NCBI GenBank assembly: GCA_012512595.1
Contig: JAAZDW010000026.1
Span: 1-39,820 of the forward strand
Length of the DNA: 39,820 bases
Reading direction: 5' to 3'
Origin: Erysipelothrix sp.
Lineage (GTDB): Bacteria; Bacillota_I; Bacilli_A; Erysipelotrichales; Erysipelotrichaceae
Part shown: in pieces, positions 10,105-28,140 of the stretch
Numbering within the stretch: position 1 is the stretch's first letter
How the letters are laid out: each line of letters opens with the position of its first letter
Notes under the pieces: generated by a model
What the model was told of the DNA's origin: nothing
Seen by the model: the letters and a program-made list of their open reading frames with translations, nothing else
The model's database searches: none
Program-made: the position numbers and the translations under genes

Positions 10105-10185
10105 AAGGCATAACCTTTGCATTATGCGAATGATATGGTAGTATATATAAATAGAAGCAATATGCTAAAAAGGAGAAAAGATAGA

Positions 10186-10620
10186 ATGAAACATTTAGAT
10201 TTAGTACAAAAGTATTTAGCGGACATTAATGTGCTTAAGGTAAAATTACTTAACTTACACTGGAATGTTGTAGGAAAGCAATTCATGATTTTACACAATT
10301 TAACTGAAGAAATTTATGATATTTTATGGGAACAAATTGATGTTGTCGCAGAAGTATTAAAAATGGAAGAAGTATATCCACTTTCAACAGTTAAGGAATA
10401 CTTAGAAGTATCAACAATCAAAGAAGTAAAAGCAAAAGATTTTACTAACGCTGAAGTATTAGAACATATGGTAGCTGACTTAGAAGCAATGAAAGCTTTA
10501 ACAGTAGAAGTTAGAAATACTGCCGATGAAGAAGGAAACTTTGAAATAGTTGCCTTGTTTGAAGATTATGCTGCAATTTATAGCAAGTATATCTGGTTTA
10601 CTAAAGCATTATCTAAGTAA
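10186..10620 (+). CDS. dps: Dps/ferritin-like DNA-protection and iron-storage protein
   Basis: 144 residues from the ATG at 10186, preceded by AGGAG (10171-10175). A TTG start at 10117 would add 23 residues with no Dps similarity and no ribosome-binding site. The ferroxidase ligands of the Dps dimer interface are spaced as in the family: H25, H37, D52 and E56 (LHWNVVG, ILHNLTEEIYD, then D-x3-E). Dps dodecamers oxidise and store iron using peroxide, which protects DNA. It is a single gene between lysS and convergent nrdJ. No clear PerR box is visible upstream. Two strong terminators follow. Confidence 0.9.
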   Translation: MKHLDLVQKYLADINVLKVKLLNLHWNVVGKQFMILHNLTEEIYDILWEQIDVVAEVLKMEEVYPLSTVKEYLEVSTIKEVKAKDFTNAEVLEHMVADLEAMKALTVEVRNTADEEGNFEIVALFEDYAAIYSKYIWFTKALSK

Positions 10621-10679: not shown

Positions 10680-10713
10680 AAAAGCTATTAGGATAATTAT
10701 CCTGATAGCTTTT
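10680..10713. terminator. Bidirectional terminator between dps and nrdJ
   Basis: AAAAGCTAT (10680-10688) pairs with ATAGCTTTT (10705-10713), and AGGATA (10690-10695) with TATCCT (10698-10703), with one T-G pair between. T-runs exist on both strands. It sits 12 nt beyond the nrdJ stop. Confidence 0.85.
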
Positions 10714-10724
10714 TGTCTATGTTT

Positions 10725-13235
10725 TTACATTTCACACTTTAATTGAGCATTACAGTTAGTACAAGTATTACAGCCACCTAAATTTTCCACTTGGCCTTCT
10801 AAACAAATAGGGCAAATATTTCCAACTTCAACCCCAATTTCTCTGTCTAATCGGTCAGCACGAAGATCTGTTAGTTTATCGCCTTCTTGAACTTCTTTGA
10901 CACTAGCTCCAAAGTCTTTAACTAAGTCTAATTGGTCCCACTCATTATCTTCTTTAGTAAGGCTAAGAACTTGTGAATCGCGTGATCCATCTACATAAAC
11001 AGTTCCACCTTTAGCTCCATTTTTATAAAGTCGTTCATAAATACTTTGAACATCTTTAACAGTGAAACCACGAGGGGCATTAACTGTTTTAGAAATTGAA
11101 GAATCAATCCAATATTGAATAGTTGTTTGAACATCCGCGTGTTCTTCAGGTTTTAATTCCATAGCACTAACGAAATAGTCAGGAAGATTATCACTGGAAA
11201 ATTCTGGGTTATATTTTAACCACTCTTCAACAATTGCTGCATTTACTTCAATGAACTTTCCTAGACGTCCTGATCTAAAATATGAAAAGGAGAAGTAAGG
11301 TTCTAAACCCGTAGATACGCCAACCATAGTACCAGTTGATCCAGTAGGAGCAATTGTTAGTAAGTGAGAGTTTCTTATTCCATATTTTTCAATATCATCT
11401 CTAAGTCCTTGGCTTAAATGTTGCATAAAGCCAGTTTGTGTAAATCTTTTGTTATCTTTTAAAAATGGGAAAGAGCCCTTTTCTTTTGCAATTTCAACAG
11501 ATTCAGCATAAGCAGCTTCAGCTATGGTTTCAAATACTTTATTAATAATATCAATCGATTCTGGACTACCATATCTTACCTTACCCCAAATCAACAAGTC
11601 GTGAAGTCCCATAATTCCTAATCCAATTCTTCTTTCACCTAAAGCTTGTTTTTTATTTTCCTCTAAAAAGTATGGTGTTGCGTCAATAACATTATCTTGA
11701 AGTCTAACTTGAGTAGCAACAGATGCCGCAAGTTTTTCATACAAAATTTCTCCTGTTTCTTTATTTGCAAAGTTAGCTAAGTTTATGGCCGCAAGATTAC
11801 ACACACTATAAGGTGCTAGAGGCTGTTCTCCACAAGGATTTGTTGCAACAACTTTTTGCCCATATGCTTTTGCATTTGTCATATCATTAGCATTATCAAT
11901 AAAGAAGATTCCAGGTTCTGCTGAGTAGGTGGCACAGAAACTTATTAAGTCCCAAATGTCTCTAGCTTTAACAGTACGGTGAACTTTAATCCCATAACCA
12001 AGTTCTTCCCATTCTCTTACATCGCCGACTTCATGCCAGTGCTCATCATAATAAGCCTTTTCTTCTTTAGTATAATTTTCTAAATCCGGATATCTTAGAT
12101 CAAAGGTTGAATCACTTTCAACAGCATCCATAAACTCTTTAGTTAAGGTTACAGAAATATTAGCTCCTGATAAAAATTCTTCATCATTAACTTCTAATGT
12201 TCCACCATCTAATAATTTATCTTTCGCAAAGTCCTTTAAATCTTGGTCGACATCTTCACTTTGGACTAAACCTTCATAGATTTTTACTTCCATTGGAGAT
12301 ATTGGTATAAACTTGAGTTTATTATAAGCTTCAGTTCTTACAACCTCATCATTTGAGTTTGTTGATAACCATTTTAAAACTCTTGGATTTTGCATTTTTG
12401 AAATGATAAATTCAATAATATCAGGATGCCAATCTGCCATCATAATCATCTGTGCGCCACGTCGTGAGCCACCTTGTTCAACTAGGTGGGTAAGATTGGC
12501 AATATCATTTAACCAGCTTACAGCTCCACTAGACTTGCCTCCAACACTCTTTGCCGGAGATGACTTTGGTCTTAGAGTTGAACCATTGGTACCAACTCCC
12601 CCACCGCGACTCATAATTTCCATTACTTCTTTTCTATGTTCGGCAATTCCACCACGGCTATCTTCAATAAATGGCATTACAAAGCAATTGAAATAGGTTA
12701 CATCGGAATTACTTCCGGCACCATATAATACTCTACCGGCTGGAATTGAGTTTAATTGACTGATCTCTTCAAAAAATCTTTGTGAGTATTTATCTTTTAA
12801 CTCTTGGCTACTTTCTTGCTGTGCCAGTGAGTGACCGACTCTTTTAGCTATTTGTTCAAAATATAACTCTAAAGGTTTGTCTACATCTTTAAAATGACGA
12901 ATAATAACACCGGTTTTTGATTCGGTTTTATCCTCTAGTGTCGCCCTAAATTCTTGATCAACTAAAATAGTTAAACTTTCATTTTCTGCATCTATTTCAA
13001 TTACATGACCAACTCCTCGAGCTGGATATTTAGGATCATCGCGAATTACAGTCAAAACTATGTCATTTACGTTCAATGTTTGTAAGCTCAAGTCTTTTTG
13101 AGCATAACGATCCAGCATTACCAATCGACTTACCCCTTCATAAGTCAGCTTGTATTCTGGCTCTATTGGAAATAAGTGAGAATAGTGTTCACTTATATCT
13201 TTATTGATTTGTTTGATTGTGTTTTCATTATACAT
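10725..13235 (-). CDS. nrdJ: Adenosylcobalamin-dependent (class II) ribonucleotide reductase
   Basis: 836 residues. Makes deoxyribonucleotides without oxygen, using an AdoCbl-derived thiyl radical. Radical and redox cysteines are all present: C184 in FNCFVMPF, C468 in NPCGEQPL (radical cysteine, with N466 and E470), and C479 in SVCNLAAINL. The 11-residue spacing of the last two matches characterised class II enzymes. Other family text: MSRGGGVGTNGSTLRPKSSP and APTGSTGTMVGVSTG. The C-terminal tail is cysteine-rich (CPIC, CNTCTNC), as expected for the thioredoxin-reducible tail. The start follows GGAGGTATAAT. Upstream on the same strand are an ECF S component and a DUF4430 protein, suggesting linked B12 uptake. 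No cobalamin riboswitch is visible in the 84 nt upstream. Confidence 0.95.
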   Translation of the reverse strand: MYNENTIKQINKDISEHYSHLFPIEPEYKLTYEGVSRLVMLDRYAQKDLSLQTLNVNDIVLTVIRDDPKYPARGVGHVIEIDAENESLTILVDQEFRATLEDKTESKTGVIIRHFKDVDKPLELYFEQIAKRVGHSLAQQESSQELKDKYSQRFFEEISQLNSIPAGRVLYGAGSNSDVTYFNCFVMPFIEDSRGGIAEHRKEVMEIMSRGGGVGTNGSTLRPKSSPAKSVGGKSSGAVSWLNDIANLTHLVEQGGSRRGAQMIMMADWHPDIIEFIISKMQNPRVLKWLSTNSNDEVVRTEAYNKLKFIPISPMEVKIYEGLVQSEDVDQDLKDFAKDKLLDGGTLEVNDEEFLSGANISVTLTKEFMDAVESDSTFDLRYPDLENYTKEEKAYYDEHWHEVGDVREWEELGYGIKVHRTVKARDIWDLISFCATYSAEPGIFFIDNANDMTNAKAYGQKVVATNPCGEQPLAPYSVCNLAAINLANFANKETGEILYEKLAASVATQVRLQDNVIDATPYFLEENKKQALGERRIGLGIMGLHDLLIWGKVRYGSPESIDIINKVFETIAEAAYAESVEIAKEKGSFPFLKDNKRFTQTGFMQHLSQGLRDDIEKYGIRNSHLLTIAPTGSTGTMVGVSTGLEPYFSFSYFRSGRLGKFIEVNAAIVEEWLKYNPEFSSDNLPDYFVSAMELKPEEHADVQTTIQYWIDSSISKTVNAPRGFTVKDVQSIYERLYKNGAKGGTVYVDGSRDSQVLSLTKEDNEWDQLDLVKDFGASVKEVQEGDKLTDLRADRLDREIGVEVGNICPICLEGQVENLGGCNTCTNCNAQLKCEM

Positions 13236-13272
13236 ATTATACCTCCGCCTATTTTATATATTAACAGATTAT

Positions 13273-13287
13273 CTAGAATGGTTCTAG
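13273..13287. promoter_or_regulatory. 6-3-6 inverted repeat upstream of nrdJ
   Basis: CTAGAA (13273-13278), TGG, TTCTAG (13282-13287) is a perfect inverted repeat 38 nt before the nrdJ start. No T-run follows on either strand, so an operator is more likely than a terminator. It does not match the NrdR box pattern. Function unknown. Confidence 0.4.
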
Positions 13288-13319
13288 CAAATGCCATTAA
13301 TTAGTCCAAATAATAGAAG

Positions 13320-13811
13320 TTAAAATATTAACTTCTCTAAATTCTTTTTTAGTGGCTCATATAAAAGTAAAGCCGTTAAATAATTTGAAAATCCATGAAC
13401 TAAATCCCATGGTAATCCTCTTATCCAAATCGGAGCAAAGGTGTGAAAGCCATAAACAAATGATAGGATCACGCTATCAAAAGCTCCAAATAATAATCCA
13501 AAAACCGCAGCATAAATGGCGATTACATAAACATTTGGTTTAAGTTTAAATAATAAGCCAGCACCAACAACAAGTGTTGGCCAAATGAGGTAGTATGTGA
13601 TAACCCAAAGGTGTGGTGGATAGATTATCGCTTGAATCGTAGTAAAGATAAAAGTAATATATAAGGTTGTTTTACAGCCTAAAAGCTTTGTATAGACTAA
13701 AAGAAGTAGCGTAACTACTTCTACATTTGGTACCACACTTAAGGCCTCTTTAGCTACAACTAACAAGGCGCTTAAGAATGCTATTAATACAAGTCTATTT
13801 CTTAATTTCAT
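13320..13811 (-). CDS. ECF-type transporter S component, probably for cobalamin or a related vitamin
   Basis: 163 residues, almost entirely hydrophobic, with five or six membrane segments. N terminus MKLRNRLVLIAFLSALLVV and a C-terminal IRGLPWDLVHGFSNYLTALL fit S components of energy-coupling-factor transporters, which bind a vitamin and dock on a shared EcfT/EcfA module encoded elsewhere. The start codon directly follows the stop of the DUF4430 gene (TAGATG), with no good ribosome-binding site, so translation is likely coupled. Substrate cannot be read from sequence; cobalamin is inferred from the flanking DUF4430 gene and B12-dependent nrdJ. Confidence 0.7.
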   Translation of the reverse strand: MKLRNRLVLIAFLSALLVVAKEALSVVPNVEVVTLLLLVYTKLLGCKTTLYITFIFTTIQAIIYPPHLWVITYYLIWPTLVVGAGLLFKLKPNVYVIAIYAAVFGLLFGAFDSVILSFVYGFHTFAPIWIRGLPWDLVHGFSNYLTALLLYEPLKKNLEKLIF

Positions 13812-14249
13812 CTATGGAAGAAGAACGTTAAAGCTAAAGTTATTTCCATCTTCAATAGCTAACATGTCAATACCTGAGCAAAAGCCTTCAGCTTCACAGA
13901 CTTTGTTGTTGTCAGAGTCATAAACCCAAAACTCGCCTGTTTCAATGTCGACGACACTAATACCAGTTATATATCTTCCAAATTCATCATCTTTAGAACC
14001 CGTCATTTCAAACATGTCATCCTTATCAGTGTTGATTTCATCTAAAAGTTCCCCTAATAATTCTGCATCGGTATTAAATGTCTCATCAAAGGCCTTCTCT
14101 GAATCTTTGTCTAATACGACAATGTTAATTGCCTTTTCTCCAACTACAACTTTTGGTTTATTTAAAGTTTTTACACCCAAATATAGAGCAGCAAATATAA
14201 CTACTGCAGCCAAAACAGATAGCATGGTTTTTCTTGTGTTTTTATTCAT
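13812..14249 (-). CDS. Membrane-anchored DUF4430 (transcobalamin C-terminal-like) protein
   Basis: 145 residues. An N-terminal signal or anchor helix (about 8-26, MLSVLAAVVIFAALYLGV) precedes a ~110-residue extracytoplasmic domain. That domain reads as DUF4430: INIVVLDKD, then FNTDAELLGELLDEI, YITGISVVDIETGEFWVYD and a final IEDGNNFSFNVLLP. DUF4430 shares its fold with the C-terminal domain of transcobalamin and is found in surface proteins next to ECF S components. A role in capturing B12 or a corrinoid outside the cell and passing it to the S component is inference. Two cysteines (VCEAEGFC) may form a disulfide. Ribosome-binding site GAGGGAGA lies at 14255-14262. Confidence 0.72.
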   Translation of the reverse strand: MNKNTRKTMLSVLAAVVIFAALYLGVKTLNKPKVVVGEKAINIVVLDKDSEKAFDETFNTDAELLGELLDEINTDKDDMFEMTGSKDDEFGRYITGISVVDIETGEFWVYDSDNNKVCEAEGFCSGIDMLAIEDGNNFSFNVLLP

Positions 14250-14285
14250 AATTTTCTCCCTCTTACTTAATTTATAAGTACAATA

Positions 14286-14294
14286 AGTATATCA
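14286..14294 (-). promoter_or_regulatory. Promoter of the DUF4430-ECF(-nrdJ) unit
   Basis: On the minus strand TGATATACT is an extended -10 (hexamer TATACT at 14291-14286). TTTATA lies about 17 nt upstream as a weak -35. The predicted leader is about 30 nt, so there is no room for a B12 riboswitch. Confidence 0.5.
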
Positions 14295-14470
14295 TACATA
14301 AGTATTTATAAAGGGCCACGATCAAGTTAAAAAAATAACTAGTGTTTAAACTAATTCTTTTTTCACCAATAATTTTAGGCGAAATTATGCAAATAAAACT
14401 AAAGGGTTTTATTAAAAACTGTTTACTTTCAGTTAATATAAGACGTAATCATGCATATTGATAACAAAAG

Positions 14471-14506
14471 TGTCATAATCCTGACAATAGTTTGATTAAG
14501 TTGTCA
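14471..14506. promoter_or_regulatory. TGTCA/TGACA half-site cluster upstream of the ABC importer
   Basis: TGTCA (14471-14475), TGACA (14482-14486) and TTGTCA (14501-14506). The first two form an inverted repeat TGTCA-N6-TGACA in the style of Crp/Fnr-family sites, centred about 48 nt upstream of the predicted transcription start. Possible activator or repressor site; regulator unknown. Confidence 0.4.
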
Positions 14507-14520
14507 ATATGCTTTACAAT
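14492..14520 (+). promoter_or_regulatory. Promoter of the AfuABC-type importer
   Basis: TTGATT (14492-14497), a 17-nt spacer, TACAAT (14515-14520). This is one of the few promoters in the window with a good -35. Predicted start near 14527. Confidence 0.7.
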
Positions 14521-14525
14521 ATTGG

Positions 14526-14539
14526 TGTAACCGTTTACA
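14526..14539 (+). promoter_or_regulatory. cre-like operator over the transcription start
   Basis: TGTAACCGTTTACA fits the catabolite-responsive element pattern TGnAAnCGnnnnCA. It covers the predicted transcription start of the importer operon, a position where CcpA or another LacI-family protein would repress. Regulator identity is inference. Confidence 0.6.
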
Positions 14540-14562
14540 ACAAAACGGACAAAGGAGGAAAT

Positions 14563-15615
14563 ATGAAAAAATTTTTGAAAGTAGTACTTGTAAGTATTTT
14601 GGCACTTACACTAGTTGCGTGTGGCAATGGAACAAAGGATACAGATGAGCCTGACAAAGGTTATGGAGGAAAGCTAGTTGTTTATTCCCCAAACTCAGAT
14701 GGTGAAATCGAAGGTTTACTCTACTATTGGGGTAAAGAGTACGGTGTAGAAATTGAACTTCAATCAATGGGTACTGGTGAAGTGCTTTCAAAACTTCAGG
14801 CAGAAAAGGATAATCCAAAAGCTGATGTTATGTTTGGTGGTATGAACTTAGGGGTTTTTGTTAATAATAAAGATTTATTTCAAGAGTACGTGGCCGAAGG
14901 TGACGACAAATTACCTGAAGGTTACCAAAACAAAACAGGATTCTTTACAAACTATCTATTATCAGGGTCTAACTTACTGGTTAATACTGATTTAGAAAAA
15001 GATCTTGGCTTTGAAATTAAAGGTTATGCTGACTTATTAAATCCAGCCTTAAAAGGTAAAATTGCGATGGGTAATGCAGCAGCTTCTTCAAGTGCCTTTG
15101 CACATCTAACAAATATGTTGTTAGTTATGGGCGATGGAACTTATACCGATGATAAAGGTTGGGATTTTGTTGAAGAGTTCGTTCAAAATTTAGATGGAAA
15201 AATCTTAGACTCATCCTCAGCAATTTACAAAAACACATATGAAGGAGAGTTTGTAGTTGGTGTTACTTATGAAGATCCATCAGTCGCCCTAATTACTGAC
15301 GGAGCAGAAAATCTACGTGTTGTCTATCCAGAAGAAGGAGCAGTATGGTTACCAGCAGCTTCAGCAATAATTGCAGGAGCACCTAATGTTGATAACGCGA
15401 AGCATTTCTTAGATTTCTTAATTTCAGATGAAGGTCAAAAAATTGTTGCAGGATTAACTAATCGTCCTACAAATATCACAATTCCAAACACAAATAAACA
15501 TATGATCCCATTTGAAAAAATAAACATTGCATATGAAGATATCCAATTTACAGCTGATCATAAAGAAGAGTTTCAAACAAGATGGTTAGAAATTTTAGCT
15601 AAATACGGATACTAA
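14563..15615 (+). CDS. ABC importer, lipoprotein substrate-binding subunit (AfuA/FbpA-like)
   Basis: 350 residues from the ATG at 14563, which follows AAAGGAGG; the longer frame from 14509 would start within the promoter. Signal peptide with lipobox LVAC (Cys20) shows a membrane-anchored lipoprotein. The body is the periplasmic-binding fold of the ferric/hexose-phosphate family: KLVVYSPNSDGEIEGL near the N terminus, GEFVVGVTYEDP, then VVYPEEGAVWLPAASAI and a C-terminal TNRPTN. The adjacent tyrosine pair of classical ferric-binding proteins is not seen. AfuA-type proteins bind sugar phosphates, so an organophosphate is at least as likely as iron. Genes for the ATPase and permease follow directly. 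Confidence 0.85.
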   Translation: MKKFLKVVLVSILALTLVACGNGTKDTDEPDKGYGGKLVVYSPNSDGEIEGLLYYWGKEYGVEIELQSMGTGEVLSKLQAEKDNPKADVMFGGMNLGVFVNNKDLFQEYVAEGDDKLPEGYQNKTGFFTNYLLSGSNLLVNTDLEKDLGFEIKGYADLLNPALKGKIAMGNAAASSSAFAHLTNMLLVMGDGTYTDDKGWDFVEEFVQNLDGKILDSSSAIYKNTYEGEFVVGVTYEDPSVALITDGAENLRVVYPEEGAVWLPAASAIIAGAPNVDNAKHFLDFLISDEGQKIVAGLTNRPTNITIPNTNKHMIPFEKINIAYEDIQFTADHKEEFQTRWLEILAKYGY

Positions 15616-15652
15616 AAAGTAATAAGAGGAAAATCAGAAAAGAGGAATATAT

Positions 15653-16786
15653 ATGAGTGTTAATATTAAAATCCGCGACGCAGTTAAGCGTTATGGTGAT
15701 TTCACTGCAGTTTCTGGTCTTTCTTTGGACATTAAGGAGGGTGAATTTTTCACCCTCTTAGGTCCATCAGGATGTGGAAAGACGACTCTGTTACGAATGA
15801 TTGCAGGCTTTAATAGTATTGAAGGTGGAGATTTTTATTTTGAAGGCAAGCGAATTAACGATTTAGATCCAGCCAAACGTAATATTGGGATGGTATTTCA
15901 AAACTATGCAATTTTCCCACACTTAACCGTAGAAAAGAATGTTGCCTTTGGTTTACAAAACAGAAAATTAGATAAAGAAACTATTAAAACTGAAACACAA
16001 AAATACTTAGACTTGATGCATATTGGAGATTTTGCAAAAAGAATGCCAGAAAATCTTTCTGGTGGTCAACAACAACGTGTAGCTTTAGCGCGCGCTTTGG
16101 TAATTAATCCTGATGTTCTCCTAATGGATGAACCATTATCAAACTTAGATGCAAAATTACGGGTTGAAATGAGAACAGTAATCAAAGATATTCAATCAAG
16201 TGTTGGTATTACTACAGTCTACGTTACACATGATCAAGAAGAGGCAATGGCTGTCAGCGATAGAATAGCGATAATGGATCATGGAGTATTTCAACAAATT
16301 GGGACACCAAAAGCTATTTATCAACGACCATCAAACTTATTTGTAGCTTCTTTTATCGGGCAAACTAATATTATAGAGGGTAAGTTAGTGCTTGTAGATA
16401 AAAAAACAATGATTGAGTTTAAAGGTGGCTATCAACTAGAAATGGATAATATACTAGATAATTACAAGTTTGACCAAGATGTTGTTGTTTCTATTCGTCC
16501 CGAGGAGTTTCAAATTGTTTCTAATGATACGGGGCTAGTAGCAATGACTGATAATTCAGCTTTTTTAGGCCACAATACAAACTATTATGTAACAGTGTTT
16601 GATGGACAACGAGTTAAAATTTCTCAAGAATCTACTATTGAAGAAATTATCGAAGAAGATTCGCAAGTGTTCATCTATATCAATACTGCTAAAATCAACG
16701 TATTCACGGCTGACGGCAAAATTAATATCGTTAAAGGAGTTTCTGACGATAACGCTCAGTATCTAACAAAAGAACGGATAGATTAG
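15653..16786 (+). CDS. ABC importer ATPase subunit
   Basis: 377 residues. Walker A GPSGCGKT at 37-44, signature LSGGQQQR at 135-142 and Walker B VLLMDEP with D159-E160 are all intact. The ATPase domain (about 1-240) is followed by a TOBE-type regulatory region (IRPEEFQIV and following), as in the PotA/FbpC/MalK group. It would power uptake through the fused permease encoded next. Its ribosome-binding site is AGAGGAAT (15641-15648); the permease gene begins one base after its stop. Substrate is set by the binding protein upstream. Confidence 0.93.
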   Translation: MSVNIKIRDAVKRYGDFTAVSGLSLDIKEGEFFTLLGPSGCGKTTLLRMIAGFNSIEGGDFYFEGKRINDLDPAKRNIGMVFQNYAIFPHLTVEKNVAFGLQNRKLDKETIKTETQKYLDLMHIGDFAKRMPENLSGGQQQRVALARALVINPDVLLMDEPLSNLDAKLRVEMRTVIKDIQSSVGITTVYVTHDQEEAMAVSDRIAIMDHGVFQQIGTPKAIYQRPSNLFVASFIGQTNIIEGKLVLVDKKTMIEFKGGYQLEMDNILDNYKFDQDVVVSIRPEEFQIVSNDTGLVAMTDNSAFLGHNTNYYVTVFDGQRVKISQESTIEEIIEEDSQVFIYINTAKINVFTADGKINIVKGVSDDNAQYLTKERID

Positions 16787-16787
16787 T

Positions 16788-18440
16788 ATGAAACAGAAGC
16801 GAACAATTGACATTTGGACAGTCTTATCTATTTCTATTTTAGTTCTTTATTTAGTCTTTCTATTATGGCCGCTGTATAATATCCTAAAAGGGTCATTTAC
16901 AAATACTAGTGGAGAATTTACTTTAGAGTGGTTTTCCAAATTCTTTGGAGACCCTTATTACTTAAAAACTTTAGTAAATAGCTTTAGTGTAACTGTTTGG
17001 GTAACGATACTAACATTAGTCGTAGGTTATCCAATGGCTTACTTTTTTAATATGTATGAGATCAAAGGAAAAGCAATTGTACAAATAGTCGTGATATTAA
17101 CTGCGATGTCGGCACCGTTTATTGGGGCTTATGCCTGGATTCAATTATTGGGTCGCAATGGTATAATTACTGCATTTTTAAGAAATACAATTGGTTTTAC
17201 AAAAATGCCTACCATTTATGGTTTCAATGGTATCTTACTAGTACTAACTTTGCAACTGATTCCGCTAGTGTTTCTTTATATTTCAGGAGCACTTAAGAAA
17301 ATTGATAATAGTATTTTGGAAGCCTCAGAAAATATGGGGGTTACTGGTGTAAAAAGATTTTTCAAAGTAATTGTACCTTTAACTATGCCAACGGTTTTTG
17401 CTGCAGCTCTTCTTGTTTTTATGCGAGCATTTTCTGATTTTGGAACCCCATTATTAATTGGCGAAGGTTATCGTGTCTTTCCAGTAGAAATTTATCGACA
17501 GTTTTTAGGGGAAACGGGTAGAAACTATAATTTCGCGGCCAGTATAAGTGTTATTGCAATTATTATTACATCAGCAATATTCTTAGGTCAAAGGTTTCTT
17601 TCAAAGTACTTTAGTTTTACGATGAAATCATTTAATTCAGTGGAACGTAAACAAGCAAAAGGGATCAAAAATTTTTTAATGCATGCATATATTTATACAA
17701 TATTATTTGTAGCATATTTACCACAGCTATTAATTCTCTATCAGTCCTTTCAAAATACTTCAGGTAAAATCTTTGTAAAAGGATTTTCATTAAATAGTTA
17801 TCGAGTAGCGCTTGAAAGAATGGGCAAGTCAATACCAACGACCTTTTATATCGGAGGGTTAGCACTTGCGATAACAGTTTTAGCTGCAGTCTTAATTTCT
17901 TACTTAGTTGTAAGAAGACCAAACCCAATTAACACATTTGTTGATACATTAAGTATGATTCCTTATATTATTCCAGGATCAGTAATCGGGATTGGCTTAG
18001 TTATGACCTTTAATAGAAAGCCACTTGTCTTAACAGGCACAGTAACAATAATGGTTGTTGCATTGGTTATTCGAAGAATCCCATATACGATTCGATCCTC
18101 AGTAGCTATATTGCAGCAAATTCCAATCACCATTGAAGAAGCAGCAATTAGCTTAGGAGCTTCCAAACTGAAAGCATTCTTTAAAGTTACAGTCCCGATG
18201 ATGGCAACTGGGGTTATTGCTGGTGCGATTCTTTCGTGGGTGACTATAATTACAGAACTATCAAGTGCTATTATTTTATATAATGCAAAAACAACGACTT
18301 TAACATTAGCGATTTATACTTTTGTAACTCGAGGTAATTATGGTTATGCCGCTGCATTAGCAACCGTCCTTTCAATTGTAACAGTATTATCAATCTTGCT
18401 TTATATGAAGATTGCGGACACAGACGAAATAACCTTATAA
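16788..18440 (+). CDS. ABC importer permease, two fused BPD domains
   Basis: 550 residues with about 12 membrane segments. It is two permease domains in one chain, as in FbpB, SfuB and AfuB. Each half carries an EAA loop that contacts the ATPase: EASENMGVTGVKRFFKVIVP in the first half and EEAAISLGASKLKAFFKVTVP in the second. The linker near residues 275-290 (NSVERKQAKGIKNF) is cytoplasmic. The start lies two bases past the ATPase stop with only a weak ribosome-binding site, so coupling is likely. A strong terminator follows, closing the three-gene operon. Confidence 0.93.
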   Translation: MKQKRTIDIWTVLSISILVLYLVFLLWPLYNILKGSFTNTSGEFTLEWFSKFFGDPYYLKTLVNSFSVTVWVTILTLVVGYPMAYFFNMYEIKGKAIVQIVVILTAMSAPFIGAYAWIQLLGRNGIITAFLRNTIGFTKMPTIYGFNGILLVLTLQLIPLVFLYISGALKKIDNSILEASENMGVTGVKRFFKVIVPLTMPTVFAAALLVFMRAFSDFGTPLLIGEGYRVFPVEIYRQFLGETGRNYNFAASISVIAIIITSAIFLGQRFLSKYFSFTMKSFNSVERKQAKGIKNFLMHAYIYTILFVAYLPQLLILYQSFQNTSGKIFVKGFSLNSYRVALERMGKSIPTTFYIGGLALAITVLAAVLISYLVVRRPNPINTFVDTLSMIPYIIPGSVIGIGLVMTFNRKPLVLTGTVTIMVVALVIRRIPYTIRSSVAILQQIPITIEEAAISLGASKLKAFFKVTVPMMATGVIAGAILSWVTIITELSSAIILYNAKTTTLTLAIYTFVTRGNYGYAAALATVLSIVTVLSILLYMKIADTDEITL

Positions 18441-18607: not shown

Positions 18608-19240
18608 ATGAGGCAGAAAGCTTTGTTTGTGACATTTGAAGGACCAGATGGCAGTGGGAAAACCACAATTAGTCAAGCTGTTTATAATAAACTTAAACAA
18701 TTAGGATACAATTGTATATATACACGAGAACCAGGTGGGATTCGCATCTCTGAAGACATCAGAGATATTATTTTAGATACCCAAAACACTAATATGGACA
18801 TCAGAACCGAGGCCCTATTATATGCGGCAAGTCGACGTCAACATTTAATCGAGAAGATTATTCCAGCCTTAAAAAATAGCCAAATAGTTATATGTGATCG
18901 TTTTATTGATAGCTCACTTGCTTACCAAGGAGTTGGAAGATCAATTGGTTTTGATGAGGTTTTGCAGATTAATCAATTTGCGATTGAAGGTTTGTTTCCT
19001 GATTTAACAATATACTTGGATATTAGTGCAGAAGAAGGTTTAAAAAGAATAGAAGATCGAGACCATAAAGATCGGTTAGATCTTGAAAGTATTGACTTTC
19101 ATAATAAAGTACACCAGGGTTATCAATTAGTTTTAGAACGTTTTAAAGATAGAATTCAAATAGTTGACGCTAACCAAACTATCGAGCAAATTACAGATAT
19201 GGCTGTTGAAATAATCATTAAGGAAAACAATAATGAATAG
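18608..19240 (+). CDS. tmk: Thymidylate kinase
   Basis: 210 residues, normal. Phosphorylates dTMP to dTDP with ATP. P-loop EGPDGSGKTT at 11-20; the DR-x motif CDRFIDSSLAYQG; the LID region with basic residues (RIEDRDHKDRLD). The ATG at 18608 gives the canonical N terminus. The gene overlaps holB by 8 nt. This is the tmk-holB-ricT-rsmI block of Bacillota, but without the yaaQ (darA) and yaaR genes found between tmk and holB in Bacillus. Confidence 0.96.
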   Translation: MRQKALFVTFEGPDGSGKTTISQAVYNKLKQLGYNCIYTREPGGIRISEDIRDIILDTQNTNMDIRTEALLYAASRRQHLIEKIIPALKNSQIVICDRFIDSSLAYQGVGRSIGFDEVLQINQFAIEGLFPDLTIYLDISAEEGLKRIEDRDHKDRLDLESIDFHNKVHQGYQLVLERFKDRIQIVDANQTIEQITDMAVEIIIKENNNE

Positions 19241-27928: not shown

Positions 27929-27934
27929 AGATAT

Positions 27935-28140
27935 ACAAGTCAATGACTGGAAGAGATTAAGTTCTACACTTAGAGAGCAGATGTTGGGTGGAAGTCTGTT
28001 GTTAGGATTTATGAAGATGGTCCACGAGCAATCTAATTAAGTTAGACGTATATCTTTCGTTACAAGGTTAAGCGCATATTCAAGATTGAATATGAACTAA
28101 GGTGGTACCGCGCACAGTCGTCCTTTGTGGACGTTTTTTT
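27935..28140 (+). promoter_or_regulatory. T-box leader (tRNA-Met sensing) of metG
   Basis: Contains the T-box core AAGGTGGTACCGCG (28099-28112). TGGT in it (28103-28106) can pair with the ACCA end of an uncharged tRNA with discriminator A. Downstream, CGTCC (28119-28123) and GGACG (28129-28133) followed by T7 form the terminator. The stem I region contains an AGAGAG element (27972-27977) and a candidate specifier ATG at 28011-28013. Uncharged tRNA-Met would stabilise the antiterminator and switch metG on. Stem I pairing was not folded in detail. Confidence 0.88.

Follow-up and report, generated by a model that had tools for sequence, protein, structure and literature searches.

A predicted cobalamin acquisition-and-use module of a DUF4430 protein, a CbrT-type S component and NrdJ in Erysipelothrix

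Genes and features of the locus

In this study, we describe three adjacent genes in a stretch of 39,820 nucleotides from an uncultured Erysipelothrix sp. (GenBank assembly GCA_012512595.1, contig JAAZDW010000026.1; hereafter the window, by which the whole stretch is meant), which takes up an entire contig of a genome of 955 kb that is 66% complete. All three lie on the minus strand and encode, in order of transcription, a cbrS-like protein of the DUF4430 kind (13812-14249), the S component of an energy-coupling factor (ECF) transporter (13320-13811) and the ribonucleotide reductase NrdJ (10725-13235). Together they very probably form a module for the acquisition and use of cobalamin (vitamin B12). 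The features of the locus are the following.

13812..14249, minus strand: CbrS/DUF4430-like protein, 145 aa (open reading frame, orthologue profile, AlphaFold model, structure matches)
13320..13811, minus strand: CbrT-type ECF S component, 163 aa (open reading frame, profile A1 against PDB, model)
10725..13235, minus strand: NrdJ, adenosylcobalamin-dependent (class II) ribonucleotide reductase, 836 aa (NCBIfam PRK08115 and TIGR02504, both over cut-off)
10680..10713, no strand assigned: terminator-like hairpin of 15 pairs with A/T flanks on both sides, just past the nrdJ stop (consensus match only)
14250..14508, minus strand: leader/intergenic region of the module, without cobalamin riboswitch (RF00174 scans negative)

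The coordinates of the open reading frames agree with an initial annotation of this DNA, which had reported three minus-strand genes in a row and a TAGATG start of the S gene; at the 13811/13812 junction, the ATG of the S gene indeed follows immediately upon the TAG stop of the cbrS-like gene. Its span of 10725-14291 located the module but took in about 42 bases of leader, the first gene starting at 14249. The abutting stop and start codons suggest translational coupling of the pair, and a common transcript with nrdJ, which begins 84 bp after the S gene, is likely. The hairpin might act on nrdJ and also on the gene that converges with it at 10117-10620.

Identity of the three gene products

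Scanned alone, the S component has no Pfam or NCBIfam match. A profile of 35 of its orthologues (A1), compared with the whole of the PDB, gave at E up to 10 a single match, the ECF-CbrT entry 6fnp_A (E 3.5e-19); S components for riboflavin, thiamin, biotin, folate and pantothenate are present in the PDB, yet were not matched. By this measure the protein belongs with CbrT, the cobalamin S component, and not with the non-corrinoid families whose kinship the initial annotation had named as the danger to its proposal. Pfam ECF_trnsprt matches 13 of the 35 orthologues, and the protein carries an AFLSA (AxxxA) motif at residues 11-15. Its AlphaFold model (pLDDT, the predicted local distance difference test, 95.2) has the S-component fold, and in VIA-align it superposes on 6fnp with Z 13.3 and a root-mean-square deviation of 2.7; ranks 1-22 are all S components or other ECF subunits (Z 10.8-15.3), a fold ranking that among S components says nothing on substrate specificity. 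Foldseek alone did not list 6fnp for this model, but VIA-align did. A genome search for the EcfA and EcfT subunits found both, EcfT at G000:C34:26670-27332 with two EcfA-like genes beside it.

The cbrS-like protein consists of an N-terminal hydrophobic anchor, with a helix at residues 3-29, and of residues 37-145, which in the AlphaFold model (pLDDT 93.8; an N-terminal helix and a compact alpha/beta domain) are predicted to form a single extracellular beta-grasp domain of the transcobalamin beta-domain kind. No alpha/alpha-toroid domain such as that of transcobalamin was found in its 145 residues. The initial annotation was right to label it DUF4430, although Pfam is blind to the protein alone: it has no Pfam or NCBIfam match, and PF14478 does not match it at E up to 1. 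PF14478 does match 15 of its 34 orthologues at E up to 0.1 (best 3.8e-5); the same family finds nothing in the genome of the window, because the local protein is too divergent. The orthologue profile reaches the DUF4430 structure 3u7z, deposited only as a 'putative metal binding protein', at E 8.2e-11, and intrinsic factor weakly (0.08). Structurally, 3u7z is also the best match to the model (Z 13.0), followed by 14 transcobalamin, haptocorrin and intrinsic factor entries at Z 11.2-12.2 over ~99 residues, well above ubiquitin-like proteins (Z 7 or less). These matches and the predicted anchor helix bear out a membrane-anchored, transcobalamin-related domain, with which the extracellular corrinoid-binding partner tentatively proposed in the initial annotation would agree. 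Across 34 aligned Erysipelotrichaceae relatives, G91, S112, C118 and C124 are invariant. A lipobox-like motif is present in 16 of 117 distinct homologues, and others, including the window's, have an uncleaved-looking anchor; either would fit an outward-facing, membrane-held protein.

Class II reductases such as NrdJ require adenosylcobalamin. The identity of NrdJ, as first annotated, is secured by two NCBIfam models over their cut-offs (PRK08115, 1340 bits, cut-off 854; TIGR02504, 569 bits, cut-off 400), and the protein has the NPCGEQ active-site motif and a C-terminal cysteine cluster. In two sibling loci of the genus, a gene for NrdE-prime, a reductase of class I type (TIGR02510; L043:566-3526 and L044:13648-16755), converges on nrdJ; this gene, preceded by one that begins with an ATP-cone-like sequence, is absent from that place in the window. 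All three genomes of the genus also encode the anaerobic reductase NrdD. With NrdE-prime in the siblings and NrdD throughout, the B12-dependent enzyme is probably one among several reductases on which the genus can draw. A B12-binding radical SAM protein (DUF4080 type) encoded in the genome of the window (G000:C28:21872-22117, L184) is likely a second corrinoid user.

Conserved neighbourhood and riboswitches

To place the module among its relatives, we searched 145 Erysipelotrichaceae genomes with the S component, found it in 69 and read 68 loci. In 63 of these 68, a DUF-like gene and the S gene are same-strand neighbours, the DUF-like gene being upstream in 38 and downstream in 25, with a median gap of -1 base. 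A PduO-type adenosyltransferase gene lies on the same strand in 27/68; nrdJ does so in 20/68, usually with PduO between, and the commonest arrangement with nrdJ is cbrS-cbrT-pduO-nrdJ. The proposed linkage of the pair to nrdJ is therefore found in relatives as well. By genome, 62 hold both S component and CbrS, 7 the S component only, 14 CbrS only and 62 neither (Fisher 4e-19, uncorrected for kinship). In a named genome collection, which overlaps the family set in some genomes, the DUF gene lies directly upstream of the S gene in 77 of the 80 best loci, from records labelled Erysipelotrichia, Clostridia, Halanaerobiales, Mycoplasmatota and one Anaerolineaceae. Conserved in this way across Bacillota, the adjacency of the pair is not due to chance. 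In other relatives, as read by eye, the neighbours are methionine synthase pieces or genes of the corrinoid-methyltransferase type.

That the three genes are neighbours by accident, nrdJ being unrelated to the transport pair, might be argued from the 84-bp gap in the window and from the many relatives with the pair but without nrdJ. In both siblings, however, 15 bp separate the S gene from nrdJ or the two overlap, and the same set with PduO recurs in many genera, in another order in Lactobacillus. We regard this explanation as highly improbable and as largely refuted by conserved clustering.

The cobalamin riboswitch (RF00174) lies directly upstream of the cluster in 33 of the 63 loci scanned, a count that leaves out a 34th riboswitch locus (L070), 4.5 kb away and with no DUF gene. 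Those scanned relatives with cbrS-cbrT-pduO-nrdJ and enough upstream sequence carry it, unlike the window and its two siblings. No riboswitch remnant was found in the window leader. As a substitute control we considered an NrdR box, for which there was one match with 3 mismatches, distant (32816) and at chance level.

Several observations on neighbouring and related loci may be added. In the window, a three-gene ABC (ATP-binding cassette) transporter operon (14509-18440; substrate-binding lipoprotein, ATPase and fused permease) separates the module from a tmk-like gene at 18608, unlike both siblings, in which the module is directly divergent from tmk. A T-box leader (RF00230, 100 bits) lies at 27934-28128, ahead of a gene starting at 28125. 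A second subgroup (L060, L067, L072-L079) has the order pduO-cbrT-cbrS, with cbrS downstream and the S motif LYLE, not PNVE; several of its loci lie behind a cobalamin riboswitch. In another family of the order (L186-L196, for example L188:1-2016 and L196:1456-3471), a secreted alpha/alpha-toroid gene, a DUF4430 gene and a CbrT-type S gene stand in a row, both transcobalamin halves thus being two neighbouring genes beside the importer; no riboswitch was seen within the short flanks examined there.

These neighbourhoods bear on another explanation, namely that the DUF4430 protein is a structural or polysaccharide-binding partner of the S component whose beta-grasp ligand site has been lost. Its identity to transcobalamin and kin over the beta domain is only about 12-16%, an invariant Cys pair is peculiar to its clade, and related SLBB domains bind other ligands (PMC1796856). 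On the other side, in several classes the pair goes together with the cobalamin riboswitch and with B12 genes, and in the order relatives the alpha/alpha-toroid gene stands beside the genes for DUF4430 and CbrT. We therefore consider a loss of ligand binding unlikely.

Proposed route of cobalamin and comparison with known systems

The arrangement as such is not new. In L. delbrueckii, CbrT is encoded within nrdJ-cbrS-cbrT-pduO, and ECF-CbrT was shown in 2018 to transport cobalamin and cobinamide, CbrS being left undefined (PMC5997447); B12 scavenging by the transcobalamin-like clade of the SLBB beta-grasp superfamily had been predicted by Burroughs et al. 2007 (PMC1796856). In Lactobacillus intestinalis, we found the order nrdJ - DUF4430 - S - adenosyltransferase, in which DUF4430 is the annotated name and the CbrT homologue shares 59% identity with that of L. 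delbrueckii; since this mirrors the published cluster, CbrS is very probably the DUF4430 protein. This identification of cbrS has a high probability on the strength of synteny, of Pfam DUF4430 matches in both groups and of the fold; hhalign aligns the CbrS profile weakly with the one L. intestinalis DUF4430 sequence (probability 31%, E 5e-4). The same parts occur in other orders or states in L. reuteri, L. plantarum and Lactococcus plasmids, and an Enterococcus raffinosus replicon carries the DUF4430-S pair; tblastn with the single window protein against plasmids gave no match. Peculiar to this locus are the missing riboswitch and the finding of no known adenosyltransferase in the genus.

We propose that the N-terminal helix holds CbrS on the outer membrane face, where its beta-grasp domain, resembling the beta half of transcobalamin, would grip the corrinoid and pass it to the CbrT-type S component. 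This component and the shared EcfA/EcfT motor, the genes of which lie at another place in the genome, would then drive import with ATP, as shown for CbrT of L. delbrueckii, and the imported cobalamin would serve NrdJ in deoxynucleoside triphosphate synthesis and probably also the B12-binding radical SAM protein. On balance, we favor the view that CbrS is a true extracellular corrinoid-binding subunit feeding CbrT, which would make this an ECF importer with a dedicated external partner and CbrS a bacterial relative of the beta domain of animal B12 carriers, completed in some relatives by a separate alpha/alpha-toroid protein to a two-protein transcobalamin.

What the pair imports might instead be a precursor or a fragment of B12 (cobinamide, alpha-ribazole or a different cobamide), the full corrinoid being made or remodelled inside. 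CbrT binds and transports cobinamide too (PMC5997447), and the transcobalamin beta domain binds it (PMC5599065). In the loci read, however, the pair is linked to an adenosyltransferase and to enzymes that use B12, whereas genes for late corrinoid synthesis are not among its partners, and none of these lies beside the module in the siblings (no whole-genome search for CobS/CobU/CobT was made). We give this explanation little credence, less still than a loss of the ligand site.

Several results weigh against CbrS as a corrinoid-binding subunit, or against the module as a whole. RF00174 is lacking from the window leader at the gathering threshold and at E up to 10, as the initial annotation had noted, and from both siblings, L043 among them; the non-classical control expected from this holds for this genus only, since most relatives with an nrdJ cluster do have the riboswitch. 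Three genomes of the genus (G000, G032, G076), all with NrdJ, yielded neither a PduO- nor a CobA-type adenosyltransferase, and the window's own genome is the incomplete one described above. As no cob(I)alamin adenosyltransferase of a known type turned up, the genus would either import adenosylcobalamin as such or use an unrecognised enzyme, and adenosylcobalamin is a weaker competitor than other cobalamins for L. delbrueckii CbrT (PMC5997447). Purified L. delbrueckii ECF-CbrT transports cobalamin in proteoliposomes (PMC5997447), and CbrS is thus not strictly needed for transport. Seven of the genomes with an S component have no detected CbrS, although some hold a diverged one: in L050 and L052 a protein of the CbrS kind, read by eye and without profile match, lies between riboswitch and S gene. 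Finally, our search of openly available papers found no test of CbrS/DUF4430 and no binding or transport data for any CbrS.

The CbrS-CbrT pair occurs widely among Bacillota, including many bacteria of the gut, and we found no demonstrated function for a DUF4430 partner. Linkage, riboswitches and the transcobalamin-like fold turn the 2007 prediction into one for a direct test of binding and uptake, and the pair would offer B12-dependent bacteria a concrete means with which they could compete for the vitamin. A small question raised by the genus is that of NrdJ alongside no recognised adenosyltransferase.

To our knowledge, ECF systems are usually described without a dedicated external binding partner. 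The closest counterpart is the Lactobacillus nrdJ-cbrS-cbrT-pduO cluster (ECF-CbrT, PDB 6fnp), which shares NrdJ, a DUF4430 protein, a CbrT-type S component and EcfA/T; it differs in order (cbrS-cbrT-nrdJ in the window), in having pduO, absent from the window and two siblings, and in its NrdJ, annotated as a triphosphate reductase where the window enzyme is of the PRK08115 type. With the transcobalamin-like SLBB clade (PMC1796856; PF14478; 3u7z), CbrS has in common the fold, the predicted extracellular location, a low-GC Gram-positive host and predicted B12 scavenging with a CbiO/CbiQ-like (ECF-type) transporter; the window protein is set apart by its lone beta domain on a membrane anchor without alpha/alpha toroid, by the Cys pair C118/C124, invariant in 34 Erysipelotrichaceae proteins, and by lying below Pfam detection alone. 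Human transcobalamin, intrinsic factor and haptocorrin share the beta-domain fold, and the isolated human transcobalamin beta domain has been crystallised with cyanocobalamin and with cobinamide (PMC5599065); the window protein is bacterial, membrane-anchored and without alpha domain. Like the surface lipoproteins BtuG and BtuH of Bacteroides, CbrS is predicted to be a surface B12-binding partner of a B12 transporter. BtuG, in contrast, is a beta-propeller and BtuH combines its own C-terminal B12 domain with immunoglobulin-like domains (PMC6977713, PMC8941943), and the partner of BtuG is BtuB, where that of CbrS would be an ECF S component.

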